Source: Tunturiibacter gelidiferens | GTDB taxonomy: Bacteria > Acidobacteriota > Terriglobia > Terriglobales > Acidobacteriaceae | DNA: 64,000 nucleotides | Assembly (NCBI RefSeq): GCF_013410115.1 | Contig: NZ_JACCCV010000002.1 | Coordinates: 620,001 to 684,000, forward strand | Direction: 5' to 3' | Shown here: positions 6,303-58,462 of the stretch, piece by piece | Layout: the number at the start of each line of letters is the position of its first letter | Position numbering within the stretch: the stretch's first letter is position 1 | Program-made: the position numbers and the translations under genes | The notes under the pieces: generated by a model | Databases searched by the model: none | Told to the model about the DNA's origin: nothing | What the model saw: the letters and a program-made list of their open reading frames with translations, nothing else

Positions 6303-6354
6303 AAATCTCCCCTCCGACCAAAGGGAGGCCCCAGCGGCCCATCCCACCCAGACC

Positions 6355-6409
6355 GGTACACAAGTCACGAAGTGACCGCTCTCCGCGCAGGAGGCCCGTC
6401 CGGCAGGAC
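6355..6409 (+). repeat. Three-hairpin element, family A copy 2
   Basis: Begins GGTACACAAG. H1 is GTCAC-GAA-GTGAC, H2 is CTCC-GCGCA-GGAG and H3 is GTCC-GGCA-GGAC (6398-6409). About 30 bp upstream (6315-6331) is CGACCAAAGGGAGG, a module that precedes several other copies. It lies directly downstream of the alpha/beta hydrolase gene on the same strand, so it is likely part of that gene's 3' untranslated region. Confidence 0.87.
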
Positions 6410-6481
6410 ACCAGCGTCTCATACAAAATTCACACAAAAACCCGCGTCAGTACTGGCTAAAGTTGATATCCTGTAAAGGCC

Positions 6482-9660: not shown

Positions 9661-9700
9661 TTGTTGTTGTCTGTTCTTATTTCATCCTTCCTATAAGAAG

Positions 9701-9780
9701 CGTCATCTCGACCGAAACAGCAGACAGTTTCATCGTTTGCTGTGCAGTGGAGAGACCCCCGCATTTCGCCTTTGTTGTTG
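9701..9780 (+). repeat. Variable-stem element, family B copy 1
   Basis: Flanks CGTCATCTCGACCGAAAC and GCAGTGGAGAGACCCCC enclose a hairpin whose arms are AGCAGAC and GTTTGCT (one G-T wobble) around the loop AGTTTCATC. The arms differ from those of the other two copies while the flanks and loop are nearly the same. It ends GCATTTCGCCTTTG. Confidence 0.8.
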
Positions 9781-9888
9781 CTTGTTTTTTTCTCTTATCC
9801 AACTCCAGGCAGCCTACCCACCCATTCGCAGGCGAAGCCACTAAGACAACTCCACCAACTCGCGCCGCATGAGAGAATAAACTCGCTC

Positions 9889-10722: not shown

Positions 10723-11043
10723 ATGAAGAAAGCACCAGACAAGATCGACGATCTCCTTGCCAGTCTCTGGAAGAAAAATCTTCCGACCCTGCGCGAACGT
10801 CTCGACCTGCTCGATCGCACCGCCTCCATCGCCGCCTCCGGCAACCTCGCCGACGAGCCTCGCCTCGAGGCCTACAGCATCGCCCACAAACTCACAGGCT
10901 CTCTCGGCATGTTCGGCTACCAGCAGGGCACCGACATCGCCCGCAAGATTGAGCAAATTTTAAAGGCGCCCACCCCCACCCAACTCACTACCCTCCCCGC
11001 CCTCGCGAAAGACCTTCGCACCTCCCTCTCCGCCGGCCTCTGA
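10723..11043 (+). CDS. Hpt (histidine phosphotransfer) domain protein
   Basis: A 106-residue stand-alone Hpt domain, all-helical, with the phosphorylated His in SIAHKLTGSLGMFGY (His55). Such proteins shuttle phosphate between receiver domains. The ATG at 10723 (MKKAPDKIDDLLASLWKKNL) begins the first Hpt helix; a longer frame reaching back to 10486 runs through repeat-like sequence and is not used. Two genes upstream is a hybrid kinase that carries receivers but no Hpt of its own, so the two are natural partners (inference). A family A element follows 5 bp after the stop. Confidence 0.9.
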   Translation: MKKAPDKIDDLLASLWKKNLPTLRERLDLLDRTASIAASGNLADEPRLEAYSIAHKLTGSLGMFGYQQGTDIARKIEQILKAPTPTQLTTLPALAKDLRTSLSAGL

Positions 11044-11047
11044 GAAT

Positions 11048-11240
11048 GTCCTGCCGGACGGGCGCCCTGCGCGGGCGGCGGTCACTTCGTGACTCGTAAT
11101 TGCTTCGCGAGGCGCTCTGGTTGGTCGCAGGCTGAAGTCCGTGCCGACCAGCGGGAGGACCCGAGCAGCAGACCAACCCAAGGCCGGTACACACGTCACG
11201 AAGTGACCGCCCCGCGCGCAGCGGGCCCATCCGGCAGGAA
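11048..11240. repeat. Head-to-head pair of three-hairpin elements (family A copies 3 and 4)
   Basis: Copy 3 (11048-11100) is inverted: GTCC-TGCC-GGAC, then GTCACTTCGTGAC at 11081-11093. Its middle stem reads CGCCC-GCGCA-GGGCG on the other strand. Copy 4 (11186-11240) is direct: GTCACGAAGTGAC, then CCCGC-GCGCA-GCGGG, then a weakened third hairpin, ATCC-GGCA-GGAA. Between them are GGTTGGTCG and CGACCAGCGGGAGGAC, which partly pair, so the whole 190 bp unit is an imperfect palindrome. It fills the gap between the convergent Hpt and collagen-like genes. Confidence 0.85.
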
Positions 11241-11248
11241 AAACCAAA

Positions 11249-14200
11249 TCAGTTACAAGCCAACGCCATCCACATCCCCGTAGCCGTCCCGCTCGCTCCC
11301 GTAACCGTGAAGTCCACAAAGTTCCCCGCCGCCACCGTCACGTTGCCCTCCTGCGTACACGCCGCGCCCGGCGCGACCGAACAAGCCAGTAATGTATTCG
11401 CCATACTCCCCGGCGTCCCCTGCCGCAAAATTACATTCACCGTGTTCGTCGTCTCACGCGAAAACACACTCAACTGTGTCGCCGTGCACCCCGCCGGAAC
11501 CCAGGTCAGCACAGCATCAGTCTCCGTCGACGCATCCGTGGAACTATTCACCGAATGAAACAGCAGATTGAACGAGACGGAGTGATAGATCGAAGCAAAC
11601 GGTATCCCACTCGTCCCCCCTCCACCGCCACTGCCGCCCGTCCCATTCGCCCCCGCGGCTCCCTGCGGAATCGTAAAGTTCAACACCGCGGCATTTGCAC
11701 TCCCAACATTGGTTACACTCGCCTGCGTTCCCGCCGCGCCGGTCGTCACCGTTCCCACGCTCACCGTAGCCGCCGCACCAGCCGGCCCCGTGGCCCCAGC
11801 GCTTCCATCCTGTGCCAGCACCCCCCACACCGCTGGCGAGAGATCCGGCTCCGCACCGACCGACCCGGTAGCCGCCAGGTACGTCGCCCCACCAAAGCTG
11901 ACCACATCATTCGCACGGTAAGTGGCCGCAACTCCCCACGGCCCGCGAAACGTCACGCCCACCGCGCCCGCCGGTCCAGCCGGACCCGCCACACCTTGCG
12001 GACCCTGCACACCCGCCGTCCCTTGCGCGCCCGTCGCCCCGGTAGCTCCCGTGGCGCCAGCCGCACCCTGCGCCGCCAACAAACTCCACATTGAAGGACT
12101 TACATTAGGTGCATTCCCGAAGTTGCTAGCAACCAAAGAGATATAACTCGATCCAAGATAGCTCACCGCATCGTTCAACCCATAGTTAATACCTGAAGAG
12201 TAGCTCCCCCGATAAACCATCCCCGCCGGTCCCGCAACTCCCACGGATCCCGTAGCACCCTGAGGCCCAGCCGGCCCCATCGCCCCGGTCAAACCCGTGG
12301 GTCCCGCCGAACCCGTAGGTCCCGTAGGCCCCGCTGGCCCCTGGGCACCAGGAAACCCTGTCGGCCCCTGCAGACCGGTAGCGCCCTTAGCACCCACTGG
12401 CCCCTGCGCTCCCGCCTGGGCAAGCACCCCCCAAAATGTCGGACTCACATCCGGCTGTCTTCCACTATTCGCCGCCAGCGCAATGTAACTCGACCCACCA
12501 AAGCTCACCGCACCGCCAACAGAATAGCTGGTTCCCACCAGCCATCCCCCCAGAAAACTAACCGGCGGCCCCTGCGGCCCGACCGCTCCATCGGCCCCCG
12601 CTGGCCCCATAGCCCCAGCAGGCCCAGAAGGTCCCGCCGCACCAGCGGGTCCAGCAACTCCCTGCGCCGCCAGCACCGCCCACTGCCCCGGACTCAGCGA
12701 AGGTGTATTCCCAACATTCCCTGCCAGCAGCGAGACGTAAGTCGATCCACTGAAGCTCACCGCATCATGCAGCGCATAGTTTGTCGACGAGACATAGTTC
12801 CCCGTATAGTTCGCCACCGGAGGCCCCTGCGGCCCCGTAGCTCCCGTCGCTCCCTGCGGCCCAGCCGTCCCAGCCTGTCCCGGCACACCAGGCACACCCT
12901 GAGGCCCCACTGGCCCGGCAGGCCCCTGCGCCCCCTGCGATCCCGTCGCAAACAGGGACCACAGCGCCGGGCTCAAGCTCGGAGTATTCCCAAGATTCCC
13001 CGCGACCAGCGAAACGTAAGCCGACCCGCCAAACAGCACCCCATCCGCCAGCGCATAGTTCACCGCCGAAGAGTACGTCCCGCGAAACGTCATCCCCACC
13101 GGCCCCACAGGCCCCTGCGGACCCATGGGCCCACTCAGCCCTTGAGCGCCCGTAGCTCCCGTCAAACCCTGCGCCCCAGCCTGCCCCGGAATCCCCTGCA
13201 ACCCCTGAGGCCCCGGCGGCCCATTCGGCCCCACAGACCCCGGCAATCCCTGCGGCCCCGCCACCCCCTGTGCCCCCTGCGCTCCCGTAGGCCCCGCCGG
13301 TCCCTGCGCCGTCAGCACTCCCCACTGTCCAGGGCTCGCACTCGGCGTATTTCCATGATTCCCATTCAGCAGCGAAGCATAACTAGCCCCCTGCCAAAGC
13401 ACCACATCTCCCAGCGCATAGTTCGTCATCGAAGAGTAGTTCCCTTGATAAACCAACCCCGGCAGCCCCGGAGCACCCGCCGCCCCAGCCACCCCCGTCG
13501 GCCCCGCAGCCCCCGTCGGTCCAGCCGGTCCGGTCAACCCCTGAAGCCCTTGAGCCCCTGCCGGTCCCGCTGGCCCCTGAATCCCAACCGCCCCCAACGC
13601 CAACACACCCCATTGCCCCGGACTCAACCCCGGTGTATTCCCATGGTTCGCCACAATCAGCGAAACATAGCTCGACCCCTGATACGTCACCACATCATTC
13701 AGCGCATAGTTCGTAGCCGAAGCATACGTCCCCTGATACGCCAACCCCGCCGTCCCCCCGCTACCACCTGAACCCGTCCCACCCTGCGCCAACACCGACC
13801 ACTGAGCCGCGATTCCCGGCGTATTCCCCCGGTTCCCTCCTGTCAGCGAGACAAAACTCGACCCCGAATAAGTCACCACATCATTCAGCGCATAAGTCGA
13901 CCCCGCCGCATAAGCTCCCTGAAAGCTCAACCCCGGCGCCCCCGCCGCCCCAGCAGGCCCCGTAGCCCCTGTCGCTCCAGCCGGCCCCGCAGGCCCTGCA
14001 GGCCCCGCCGGCCCGGTGGCTCCCGGCGCTCCACCCGAAGCCAGCGCTACATCCAGCACCGCCGCATGCCCCGTCAGGTCGTTCTCTTTGCTATCGAACT
14101 GCACCACCGCAGTCCCCGTCGTCAGGGCCACCCCATTATTGGTCGCCGGAGCACTCACCCATCCCTGCACCAGCCCCGTCACATCCACCACCACATAAAC

Positions 14201-14605
14201 TCCAGCCTGCCCCACCGATACCGTCTTCGCCGCACTCCCCAGCGCCGGCAGCGTCCCATACGTCACGCTGTACTCCCCCCAACTCCCACTCACCGGCTGC
14301 ACACTCACCAACCCCGCCGTATCTACCCGATTGCAATACAGCCGCAGCGTCGCCCGCGACACCTGCGCCGCCGTAGTCCCCGCCGGCAGCATCGAAAGAT
14401 CAAACTGCAGAAGCGCCGTATACCCGCCGCCCACATTCAAGTTTGAGATCGTCCCGCTATTCACCGCTGGCCGCGCGCTGTTCACATGAGCGTCCGCCAC
14501 CAGCGTCGCCTCCACCGCAGACGCCGGCAAAGCCGCGGCCCACAGCCCCGCAAGCCCCACCCCGTGCAGCAGAATCCGACGTACCTGGCCCATCCAACCC
14601 CTCAT
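11249..14605 (-). CDS. Large secreted collagen-like protein with eight inserted carbohydrate-binding-like modules
   Basis: About 1118 residues from the ATG that starts a Sec signal peptide ([20 protein letters not shown]...ALPASA). Alternative starts are ATG 14650 and TTG 14665. Residues about 30-185 resemble a DNRLRE-type domain ([49 protein letters not shown]), common at the N-terminus of secreted adhesive proteins. Then collagen-like Gly-X-Y blocks ([19 protein letters not shown]) alternate with eight copies of a module of about 45 residues, such as [20 protein letters not shown] ... SYVSL ... [11 protein letters not shown]. The module's aromatic, Gly and Trp spacing recalls CBM5/12. A Gly-rich linker and a C-terminal region of about 120 residues with four Cys finish the chain. 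It is probably a surface or matrix fibre that binds glycans (inference). Confidence 0.87.
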
Positions 14606-14883
14606 GGACAGGTCCCGCTGCGCACCCTCCGCGTCAACTAGACCAGCCATCGTTCCACGATTCAAACTCTACGGCGCACGTCGAAGGCAGCTAGAAAGCG
14701 GCCCAGCAGTGTTCCAAATCAAAACAAACAACCCGGATCATTCCCGTTTTAGGCTAACCGCACCCAAAACACAAGCACCTTCCACTGCGACTTCCGTGTC
14801 AAGCCAAGTCCTCCCCGCTCCCCACCAACCCCATGACCAACTCCACCCTCCACCCTAAGAACCTGTCCAGAAACTTTATAGAT

Positions 14884-14962
14884 CGTCATCTCGACCAGAG
14901 CCGTGCGGTCTTATCGCACGGCGCAGTGGAGAGACCCCCGTATTTCGCCTTTGCAGTTGCTT
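14884..14962 (+). repeat. Variable-stem element, family B copy 2
   Basis: CGTCATCTCGACC, then arms CCGTGCG and CGCACGG around the loop GTCTTAT, then GCAGTGGAGAGACCCCC and GTATTTCGCCTTTG. The seven-base stem is perfect and shares no sequence with the stems of copies 1 and 3. Confidence 0.83.
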
Positions 14963-14995
14963 GTTCTCACTGAAATCAGGTCACAAGCCCGGATA

Positions 14996-15037
14996 GCTCT
15001 TACAAGATCTCTTGAACTTCTGGACAGCTTTCTAAGA
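14996..15037 (+). repeat. Left copy of a direct repeat of about 42 bp flanking a composite element
   Basis: GCTCTTACAAGATCTCTTGA begins a stretch that recurs at 15259-15299 with three substitutions and one indel. The pair brackets about 220 bp holding family A copies 5 and 6. Overlapping its end, TCTGGACAGCTT (15019-15030) pairs perfectly with AAGCTGTCCAGA (15037-15048). Confidence 0.75.
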
Positions 15038-15052
15038 AGCTGTCCAGAGACT

Positions 15053-15245
15053 GTCCTCCCGGACGGGCCCACTGCGCGTGGAGCGGTCACTTCGTGACGT
15101 GTGTACCTTGTTTGGGTGAGGTTAGCTGCTTCGGTCCTCCCGTTGGTCGGAAGGAAGTTGATTCCGACCAACGGGAGGACCACGCGAAGCAGTAAGAATG
15201 CGTGCGAACGCCCGCCCTCCGCGCAGGAGGCCCGTCCGGCAGGAC
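15053..15245. repeat. Composite palindromic element with family A copies 5 (inverted) and 6 (partial)
   Basis: Copy 5 (15053-15107, inverted) has GTCC-TCCC-GGAC, CCAC-TGCGC-GTGG and GTCACTTCGTGAC. Copy 6 (15211-15245) has CCTCC-GCGCA-GGAGG and GTCC-GGCA-GGAC but lacks the GTCAC hairpin. Between them a perfect 20-base inverted repeat (15133-15152 with 15162-15181, loop of 9) extends, past a small bulge, through CTGCTTC/GAAGCAG. Confidence 0.85.
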
Positions 15246-15258
15246 AGTTTCTGGACAG

Positions 15259-15299
15259 GCTCTTACAAGATCTCTTGAATTTCCGGACACCTTCTAAGA
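15259..15299 (+). repeat. Right copy of a direct repeat of about 42 bp
   Basis: Partner of 14996-15037, again beginning GCTCTTACAAGATCTCTTGA. Just before it, AGTTTCTGGACAGG (15246-15259) is the exact inverse of CCTGTCCAGAAACT at 14862-14875, so outer inverted and inner direct repeats overlap here. Confidence 0.75.
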
Positions 15300-15395
15300 C
15301 CGATATTTCCCACACCACCCGCATCCCATATAGTGTCAAAGGGTCAGAGCAGAGGTCACAACAATCGAAGGCAATCGAAGAGGGACGTGAACGGC

Positions 15396-17051
<1,656 letters not shown>

Positions 17052-41583: not shown

Positions 41584-41638
41584 TCCGCACCCGCACTTAG
41601 TTTTGGAGTTGTCGCATTTGCATTTGCTGAGTAAACAT

Positions 41639-41712
41639 CGTCATCTCGACCGAAGCCGTTCACGGTCTCATCGTGAACGGCGCAGTGGAGAGACCCCCGT
41701 ATTTCGTTTTGT
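41639..41712 (+). repeat. Variable-stem element, family B copy 3
   Basis: CGTCATCTCGACCGAA, then arms GCCGTTCAC and GTGAACGGC around the loop GGTCTCATC, then GCAGTGGAGAGACCCCC and GTATTTCG. The nine-base stem is perfect and differs from the other copies, whereas the flanks are identical. Confidence 0.85.
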
Positions 41713-41767
41713 CCTTCGGCAATTTCACAGCCGCCTCATGTCGCCCCAAACTCACTAACCGCCCCTA

Positions 41768-58267: not shown

Positions 58268-58309
58268 ACCTAAATCCAACCCGCGACCAACGGGAGCACC
58301 AGGCGAAGC

Positions 58310-58364
58310 GGTACACAAGTCACGAAGTGACCGCCCCACGCGCAGTGGGCCCGTCCGGCAGGAC
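58310..58364 (+). repeat. Three-hairpin element, family A copy 7
   Basis: GGTACACAAG, then GTCAC-GAA-GTGAC, CCCAC-GCGCA-GTGGG (58335-58349) and GTCC-GGCA-GGAC (58353-58364). It is preceded at 58284-58300 by the accompanying module CGACCAACGGGAGCACC. It lies 42 bp after the second M16 gene on the same strand. Confidence 0.88.
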
Positions 58365-58462
58365 ACAAGCAAGCGTAACAAGTACTTGACTGACCCACCG
58401 TTTCTTCGCCTACCCTAAGGCAAGGACCTGTCTCGATAGTTGTCACCCTCGAAGAGTGAACA

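Follow-up and report, generated by a model that had tools for sequence, protein, structure and literature searches.

Repeat units of the window

The window (the whole stretch of 64,000 nt that was analysed, G000:C2:620001-684000 in the 5.29 Mb genome of a soil acidobacterium) carries seven copies of a dispersed, structured repeat. An earlier note on this DNA listed these copies, and all seven are real, as covariance model R1 recovered each of them (2270+, 6355+, 11047-11102 minus, 11186+, 15052-15107 minus, 15177-15246+, and 58310+); the copy at 15177-15246+ is a weak match (48 bits). Three copies are single units on the plus strand: 2230-2325 (rare 5' module CCGAGCAACGCGAGG, stem 2 TCGC/GCGA, stem 3 GGCC/GGCC), 6314-6410 (stem 2 CTCC/GGAG), and 58283-58365 (short mini-hairpin GCGAAGC, stem 2 CCAC/GTGG). 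The other four form two inverted pairs. In the pair at 11047-11241, the outer end of the left unit (11047-11128, minus strand, stem 2 GCCC/GGGC) lies 3 nt past a predicted gene ending at 11043, and the right unit (11144-11241, plus strand, stem 2 CCGC/GCGG, weakened stem 3 ATCC/GGAA) faces the stop of a predicted minus-strand gene at 11249-14593. This long predicted gene has 9-nt periodic repeats, and by eye its product resembles a Gly-X-Y collagen-like protein. The pair at 15052-15246 has a left unit at 15052-15150 (minus strand, stem 2 CCAC/GTGG) and a right unit at 15164-15246 (plus strand, stem 2 CTCC/GGAG) with stem 1 replaced by GCGT-GCGA-ACGC. Two copies of a second repeat, CTCTTACAAGATCTCTTGAAYTTCYGGACA, flank this pair (window 14990-15300), and the block is missing in genome G061 except for a remnant.

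The unit is mostly 83 or 96-100 nt long. It begins with a 5' module (CCGACCAACGGGAGG or GCGACCAACGGGAGC) that is present in 145 of 150 copies and covaries too; units with this module are 82-101 nt long and have four to five hairpins. The CCGACCAACGGGAGG hairpin consists of CC/GG pairs, tandem G.A mismatches, and further CC/GG pairs around A-N-C. Next comes either a spacer of 21-27 nt or a shorter stretch, 8-11 nt long, that includes a mini-hairpin (GCGAAGC or CCGAAGG). The downstream order is GGTAYAC, stem 1 (GTCAC-GAA-GTGAC), CGC, stem 2 (NNNC-GCGNA-GNNN), CCC, stem 3 (GTCC-GGCA-GGAC), and A. Unit ends are CCGACC or GCGACC and AGGACA, and conservation drops sharply outside them in 150 copies aligned with their flanks.

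The earlier note described a unit of three hairpins with a shared first stem and a covarying stem around a constant GCGCA loop. The three hairpins are present, but the unit is longer, its 5' part having been overlooked. The shared first stem occurs in six of the seven copies and is lacking in the one at 15211, and the copies at 11047 and 15052 lie on the minus strand, in inverted pairs with those at 11186 and 15211. The variable stem does covary, but its length is 4 bp (NNNC/GNNN), as the fifth, outer pair is not kept. GCGCA is the commonest loop, but the consensus is GCGNA: among 147 G000 copies there are 116 GCGCA, 21 GCGTA, 5 GCGAA, 2 GCGGA, and 3 others. The third-stem change from GTCC/GGAC to GGCC/GGCC at 2270 and the weakened stem of the 11186 copy are as described. 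Stem 2 types in the same 147 copies were CCAC (40), CTCC (38), GCCC (20), CCGC (19), TCCC (12), TCGC (3), and CGCC (3), and 12 had a mismatch or gap. CCCC, which is one pair away from most of these types, is absent from the 147 copies and occurs in 3/150 copies elsewhere.

Close units always stand in minus-plus order (36/36 and 29/29 pairs). In the 25 best G000 pairs, the starts are 135-159 nt apart and the pair measures 191-215 bp end to end. Inverted pairs have the terminal inverted repeats TGTCCTGCC and GGCAGGACA or close variants, which single units lack. Among the remaining 100 clusters, a partner module is recognisable upstream in 36, and there is none at the cut-off used in 64. Stem types within pairs do not match beyond chance (8 vs. 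5.5 expected, p 0.15; 10 vs. 7.4, p 0.12).

Copy number, covariation, and switching of stem 2

Genome G000 carries at least 150 units according to a covariance model built from 26 copies. These are mostly beside stop codons, which supports the original proposal that a structured family resembling REP elements is dispersed over gene ends. The exact core pattern was found on both strands (52 and 102 matches, with some places counted twice) and the exact 5' modules gave 88 and 97 matches, while reversed-pattern controls gave none for either. The G000 copy set was the best 150 of 169 matches, reduced to 147 by removal of three duplicate rows, and the set from other genomes was the best 150 of 209 matches. 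Rfam 15 gave nothing at gathering score in the window, and nothing at E up to 1 in 10900-15400; no description of the repeat was found in openly licensed literature. In these sources, then, the element matches no described family, as the earlier note had supposed.

Covariation across the genome is far beyond that of shuffled alignments. The alignment was fitted to the model and drawn from the best 150 of 169 matches. Among 140 distinct G000 copies, 98.7% of cells pair (89.2% when shuffled), and 156 cells are changed on both sides compared with 40.6 in shuffles; none of 500 shuffles was as high, and slid controls gave 13 or fewer. In the 61 short-spacer units that align without gaps, both-side changes occur at 9 of 19 pairs, and 98.4% of cells pair (87.5% shuffled); such changes affect the outer pair of the 5' module in 13/61 and that of the mini-hairpin in 29/61. 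Stem 2 is perfectly paired in 135/147 G000 copies and in 133/150 copies elsewhere. Constraint on the stem 2 hairpin, as RNA or as DNA, or its repair, is therefore likely.

Predicted folding gives a different result for single units and for pairs. The free energy of single units was no better than that of shuffles (six RNA z values, +0.18 to -1.26; DNA z +0.18 to -1.89), while the one inverted pair that was folded is more stable than shuffled sequence (z -8.5). The predicted fold of 58283-58365 contains an alternative hairpin, GCGGTACAC/GTGACCGC.

At 36 orthologous loci (51 unit comparisons), stem 2 was identical in 21 comparisons (8.5 at random), differed only in two both-side pairs in 18, only in one such pair in 3, and only one-sidedly in 5; four were mixed (three with one both-side pair and one with two). 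The set behind these counts leaves out repeated segments and 10 of 73 hits whose flanks were <40 nt apart; stems could be parsed only where the loop is nearly intact, and some loci contribute more than once. By column, 44 changes were on both sides and 10 on one side. There are six times as many two-pair jumps as one-pair steps (19 against 6 once the mixed cases are added), which argues for block switching. At C1:1821018 the spacer and flanks are nearly identical and stem 2 is different, and in further alignments the changes are confined to the core while the locus-specific spacer and flanks are kept. At the 2270 place, relatives share the rare stem 3 GGCC/GGCC and, apart from small changes, the rare 5' module; stem 2 there is TCGC in G000, G061, G024, and G002, GCCC in G031, and CCGC in G028.

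In these comparisons stem 2 mostly switches between whole paired types, which suggests ectopic conversion. With the stem replaced as a unit by one of a few discrete types, the reshuffling of ready-made paired stems may account for much of the covariation. The covariation that had been read as selection on a fold is strong, and pairing is kept, but at orthologous sites stem 2 mostly switches as a block.

Distribution, fixed places, and strand polarity

The family is patchy in its distribution. Among 61 sampled genomes, 25 have matches, all in one genus; in that genus 12/37 genomes have no match and 12 more have only 1-4. With a core model that included a distant variant (E up to 1e-6), matches were found in 37/398 genomes and 4/79 genera of Acidobacteriaceae, and in 16/396 genomes and 1/210 genera of Acidobacteriota. 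Named carriers among the matches listed are Edaphobacter lichenicola, Granulicella spp., Acidobacteriaceae bacterium TAA 166, and MAGs labelled Terriglobus and Acidobacteriales; their loci were fetched by exact motif from among the matches listed, and so favour intact copies and persistence. The core is also conserved in G164 (distant genus g59), where stem 1 is GCCAC/GTGGC, GTCCC/GGGAC, or GTCAC/GTGAC and stem 3 is absent. In this related repeat family (L328-L335), some inverted pairs enclose a large terminator-like hairpin. Carriage by phages, plasmids, or viruses was considered and set aside, as the exact pattern had no match in IMG/VR and blastn gave none in plasmids and phages.

Copies persist at the same places across species. 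The five window places were compared in G061 (same species), G024, G031, G002, and G028. The unit at 2230-2325 has orthologous copies in all five relatives. The unit at 6314-6410 has them in three (G061, G024, and G031), with G002 and G028 not scorable. At 11047 the element is present in four of five, as a pair in three and as a single unit in G002; G028 has another repeat family there. At 15052 no scorable relative has an element, and the site in G061 holds only the remnant TGTCCTGCCGG. The unit at 58283-58365 is kept in G061, G024, G031, and G002 and is absent from the same gene end in G028. More widely, the state (pair or single) differs in at most 12/65 comparisons of orthologous places, since a degenerate partner may escape recognition, and the relative has no core in 5/65 comparisons. 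At L238 in a relative, a single unit retains the tail of a lost left unit.

Target-site duplications or mirror flanks had a mean length of 1.56 in pairs compared with 1.08 shuffled (p 0.04, longest 4 nt), singles gave p 0.31, and the longest shared string was 4.37 vs. 4.17 (p 0.02). Shuffling tests of pairs and singles found no clear target-site duplication or mirror flank, so transposition of the element is only putative. Two loci suggested by eye an insertion into palindromic targets, which shuffling did not bear out.

One conserved site lies in a gene row of terminase-like (Terminase_6C), HipA_2, and DUF3037 genes (L062 1-3056, L375-L404). Among 30 loci read, 12 have the element, or a clear part of it, between the terminase-like and HipA_2 genes, and five others are not scorable; in the low-copy genomes G001 and G022 the site accounts for 2/3 and 2/2 matches. 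The terminase-like gene was considered as founder or mobiliser, but it is found in 49/62 genomes of the genus, also where the element is missing, and is therefore a conserved neighbour and not the mover.

GC skew usually marks the replication strand, and here it served as a stand-in for replication direction. In the window it is extreme, ranging from -0.09 to -0.33 in 4 kb steps; SkewDB gives a skew of about 2.5% as typical (PMC8941118). The skew is set by strand and not by coding direction, as third-position skew is about 0.5 and its sign follows the strand. Single units have their sense strand on the C-rich strand in 55/57 cases in G000 and 56/61 elsewhere, compared with 39/90 and 44/89 for paired units. 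With another cut-off, the singles gave 60/64 in G000 and 54/54 in five genomes with at least five singles. Single-stranded DNA transposons of the IS608 type have an orientation rule that follows replication direction (PMC5371812). If skew marks the replication strand, the polarity of single units matches this rule.

The polarity is common to an unrelated control family, and so may be a property of the genome. Two motifs of that family are on the C-rich strand in 25/25 and 17/17 cases in the DNA scanned. Two further motifs are so in 6/7 and 17/19 cases, the latter being repeats with GGTGCCCCAT or CCCCATYCTTC (G000 stretches, L206-L307). Copies of the control family, in the form CGTCATCTCGACCG...GCAGTGGAGAGACCCCC...ATTTCG, lie in the window at 9694-9786, 14878-14965, and 41632-41724.

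Gene ends, possible mobilisation, and competing explanations

For gene context, we predicted genes with a simple codon model of our own, applied to stretches selected for the elements in them. Nearly all clusters (122/125) overlap predicted genes by 25 nt or less. Convergent gaps are enriched, making up 64/121 gaps with an element compared with 11/99 without. For single units in convergent gaps, the median distance to the stop codon is 14 nt from the 3' end and 33 nt from the 5' end; in tandem gaps, the end adjoining the stop codon is a median of 15 or 6 nt away. Median stop-codon distances are therefore 6-33 nt, with tails that reach hundreds of nt. Orientation relative to transcription is unbiased (17 co-directional, 14 anti-directional), which is a poor fit to a one-way terminator.

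Gene ends that carry an element less often have a strong canonical terminator (dG < -12; 3/128) than do those without one (18/199). At a dG cut of -8 the counts are 12/128 and 33/199, and outside convergent gaps no difference was seen at this cut (4/40 vs. 14/121). In some variant copies GGGCGTTCGCACGCC or a similar sequence takes the place of stem 1, and a T-rich stretch comes next as read inward from the outer end. There are 10 of these hairpin and T-tract variants in the G000 DNA scanned and eight in named genomes, with 4-5 T in the next 6 nt. TTGTAT or TTGTGT comes after 61 of the 139 exact standard stems in G000, and the sequence after the others is less T-rich. Replacement of a terminator at the 58310 gene looked convincing by eye, but our scan gave a strong terminator in only 4/25 element-free relatives. 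Position and the T-tract variants make a predicted 3'-end role plausible, and the position of the element is compatible with putative 3' mRNA stabilisation.

We give about an even chance to the reading of the element as a REP/BIME-like folded DNA repeat at gene ends that exchanges its core and spreads in step with replication, without a recognised Y1/RAYT in G000. The element would be a non-coding repeat of Acidobacteriaceae that acts as folded DNA, with four or five small hairpins in line in each unit and a palindrome of about 190-215 bp where two units are inverted. It would settle mostly behind stop codons and often be inherited there. Copies would exchange the hairpin core by ectopic conversion over tens of bases while spacer and flanks stay, so that stem 2 would switch among ready-made paired types. 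Spread and retention would be coupled to replication, the enzyme being other than a recognised Y1/RAYT of G000. Single units keep one orientation relative to the skew, probably because of insertion of the single-stranded DNA type or because pairs lose one of their units in a strand-biased way. A second role for the hairpins at gene ends is most likely that of a barrier or terminator at the 3' end of transcripts, and in some copies a hairpin and T-tract stand in place of stem 1. We rate as improbable a bolder form, a new class of mobile structured DNA moved as single strands at the fork by a non-Y1 enzyme, with preferential insertion behind stop codons; in it, stem 2 would be a block-swapped paired cassette (seven perfect types in G000) under a pairing rule, and the element a strand-polar marker of gene ends.

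Selection on transcripts could also have kept the pairing if the element is an RNA signal, such as a bidirectional terminator or a barrier to 3' exonucleases. We think this somewhat unlikely. The placement beside stop codons, the enrichment in convergent gaps, the scarcity of strong terminators at element-bearing gene ends, and the subset with a hairpin before T-rich sequence would all be expected of such a signal, as would the central terminator-like hairpin of some pairs in genus g59 and the retention of copies at the same gene ends across species. But standard units lack a proper U-tract, single units fold no better than shuffled RNA, and the terminator difference is not seen at -8 outside convergent gaps. 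A third of the sampled genus (12/37) does without the element and 12 more genomes nearly so, one gene end had a strong terminator in few of its element-free relatives, and orientation tracks strand skew and not transcription. Covariation could also arise in a neutral repeat, by template-switch (quasipalindrome) repair that copies one arm onto the other. Template switching can create and maintain hairpins, restore their arms, and produce multibase compensatory changes (PMC8794818), and stem 2 does tolerate many sequences, with one mismatch in 12/147 G000 copies. A simple switch leaves one arm intact, however, and in 18 of the 51 comparisons both arms had changed at two pairs. No inverted loop occurred in the 147 and 150 copies, though the model favours GCGCA loops, and discrete types recur between loci. 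An origin by such repair is thus unlikely in our view.

RAYT transposases are the mobilisers suggested in the earlier note, and as such they are disfavoured. PF01797 (Y1_Tnp) matched nothing in four genomes with at least 93 copies each (G000, G002, G027, and G028). In ten genomes that carry the element, the flanks of 22 Y1 genes, read for about 2 kb or as far as the contig end, contain no copy of it. A set of 12 Y1 loci, only one of them from a high-copy genome, also lacks the motifs. An ordinary REP family whose RAYT is too diverged, acts at a distance, or was recently lost is accordingly very unlikely, despite several likenesses. The element resembles REPs and REPINs in its hairpins, its inverted dimers, its position between genes, and its high copy number (PMC3733652, PMC6006769), and RAYT gene loss is suspected in some REP genomes (PMC6006769). 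Y1_Tnp matches also occur in 45/61 relatives, including three of the seven genomes with at least 93 copies (one in G005, two in G024, and three in G031), and the sole G010 copy (L424, G010:C37:56099-63425) is about 2.8 kb from one of eight Y1_Tnp matches. Against this stand the missing GTAG/CGTC tag and a unit of more than 80 nt, not 20-40. As the element lacks the tag, the size, and the transposase, we file it apart from the RAYT-linked REP family, as a dispersed palindromic repeat that is REP/BIME-like.

If the folded DNA repeat with core exchange is the right reading, a REP-like family can reach more than 150 copies in a genome that has no recognisable RAYT, and textbook covariation can arise from whole paired stems swapped between dispersed copies. 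Caution would then be warranted when selected RNA structure is inferred from repeat families. The near-absolute polarity of single copies, common to another repeat family, would give a handle on the entry or loss of small palindromes at replication forks, and the elements are candidate gene-end signals in acidobacteria.

MITEs such as ERIC and Correia elements are 100-200 bp, near-palindromic, intergenic, and non-coding. The element is similar in size and form, but it has no clear target-site duplication and no parent transposon was found. Bidirectional intrinsic terminators likewise have hairpins between convergent genes beside stop codons, but standard copies of the element have no proper U-tract and are near-identical across loci. 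REP, BIME, and REPIN elements with a RAYT are also high-copy, extragenic, palindromic, and found as inverted dimers at gene ends; the element differs in that each unit has several hairpins and lacks a GTAG foot, that no Y1 transposase was found in G000, and that no copies were seen flanking Y1 genes. The CGTC-tagged REPs of Di Nocera et al. (2013) share inverted dimers and the lack of an associated transposase gene, but have 8-9 bp stems, 4-5 nt loops, and the CGTC tag; the element has neither the tag nor the single-hairpin plan (PMC3733652). IS200/IS605-type elements (IS608, ISDra2) are alike in hairpin ends, and their orientation tracks replication direction (PMC5371812), as that of single units may if skew marks the replication strand; the repeat has no transposase gene or known ends, so this is a working likeness only. 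The TIR repeats of acidobacterial TIRYT genes are from the same phylum and flank Y1-type genes, whereas the element was not found flanking transposase genes; this comparison is by description and not by sequence (PMC3733652). Y1_Tnp loci in the relatives (L094, L096, L098, and L099) carry other palindromes (GGGCTGAAGGCCC, CCTGGGGCTTTGCCCCAGG, and GCGCCAAAGGCGC), which by eye are perhaps a REP family of their own.
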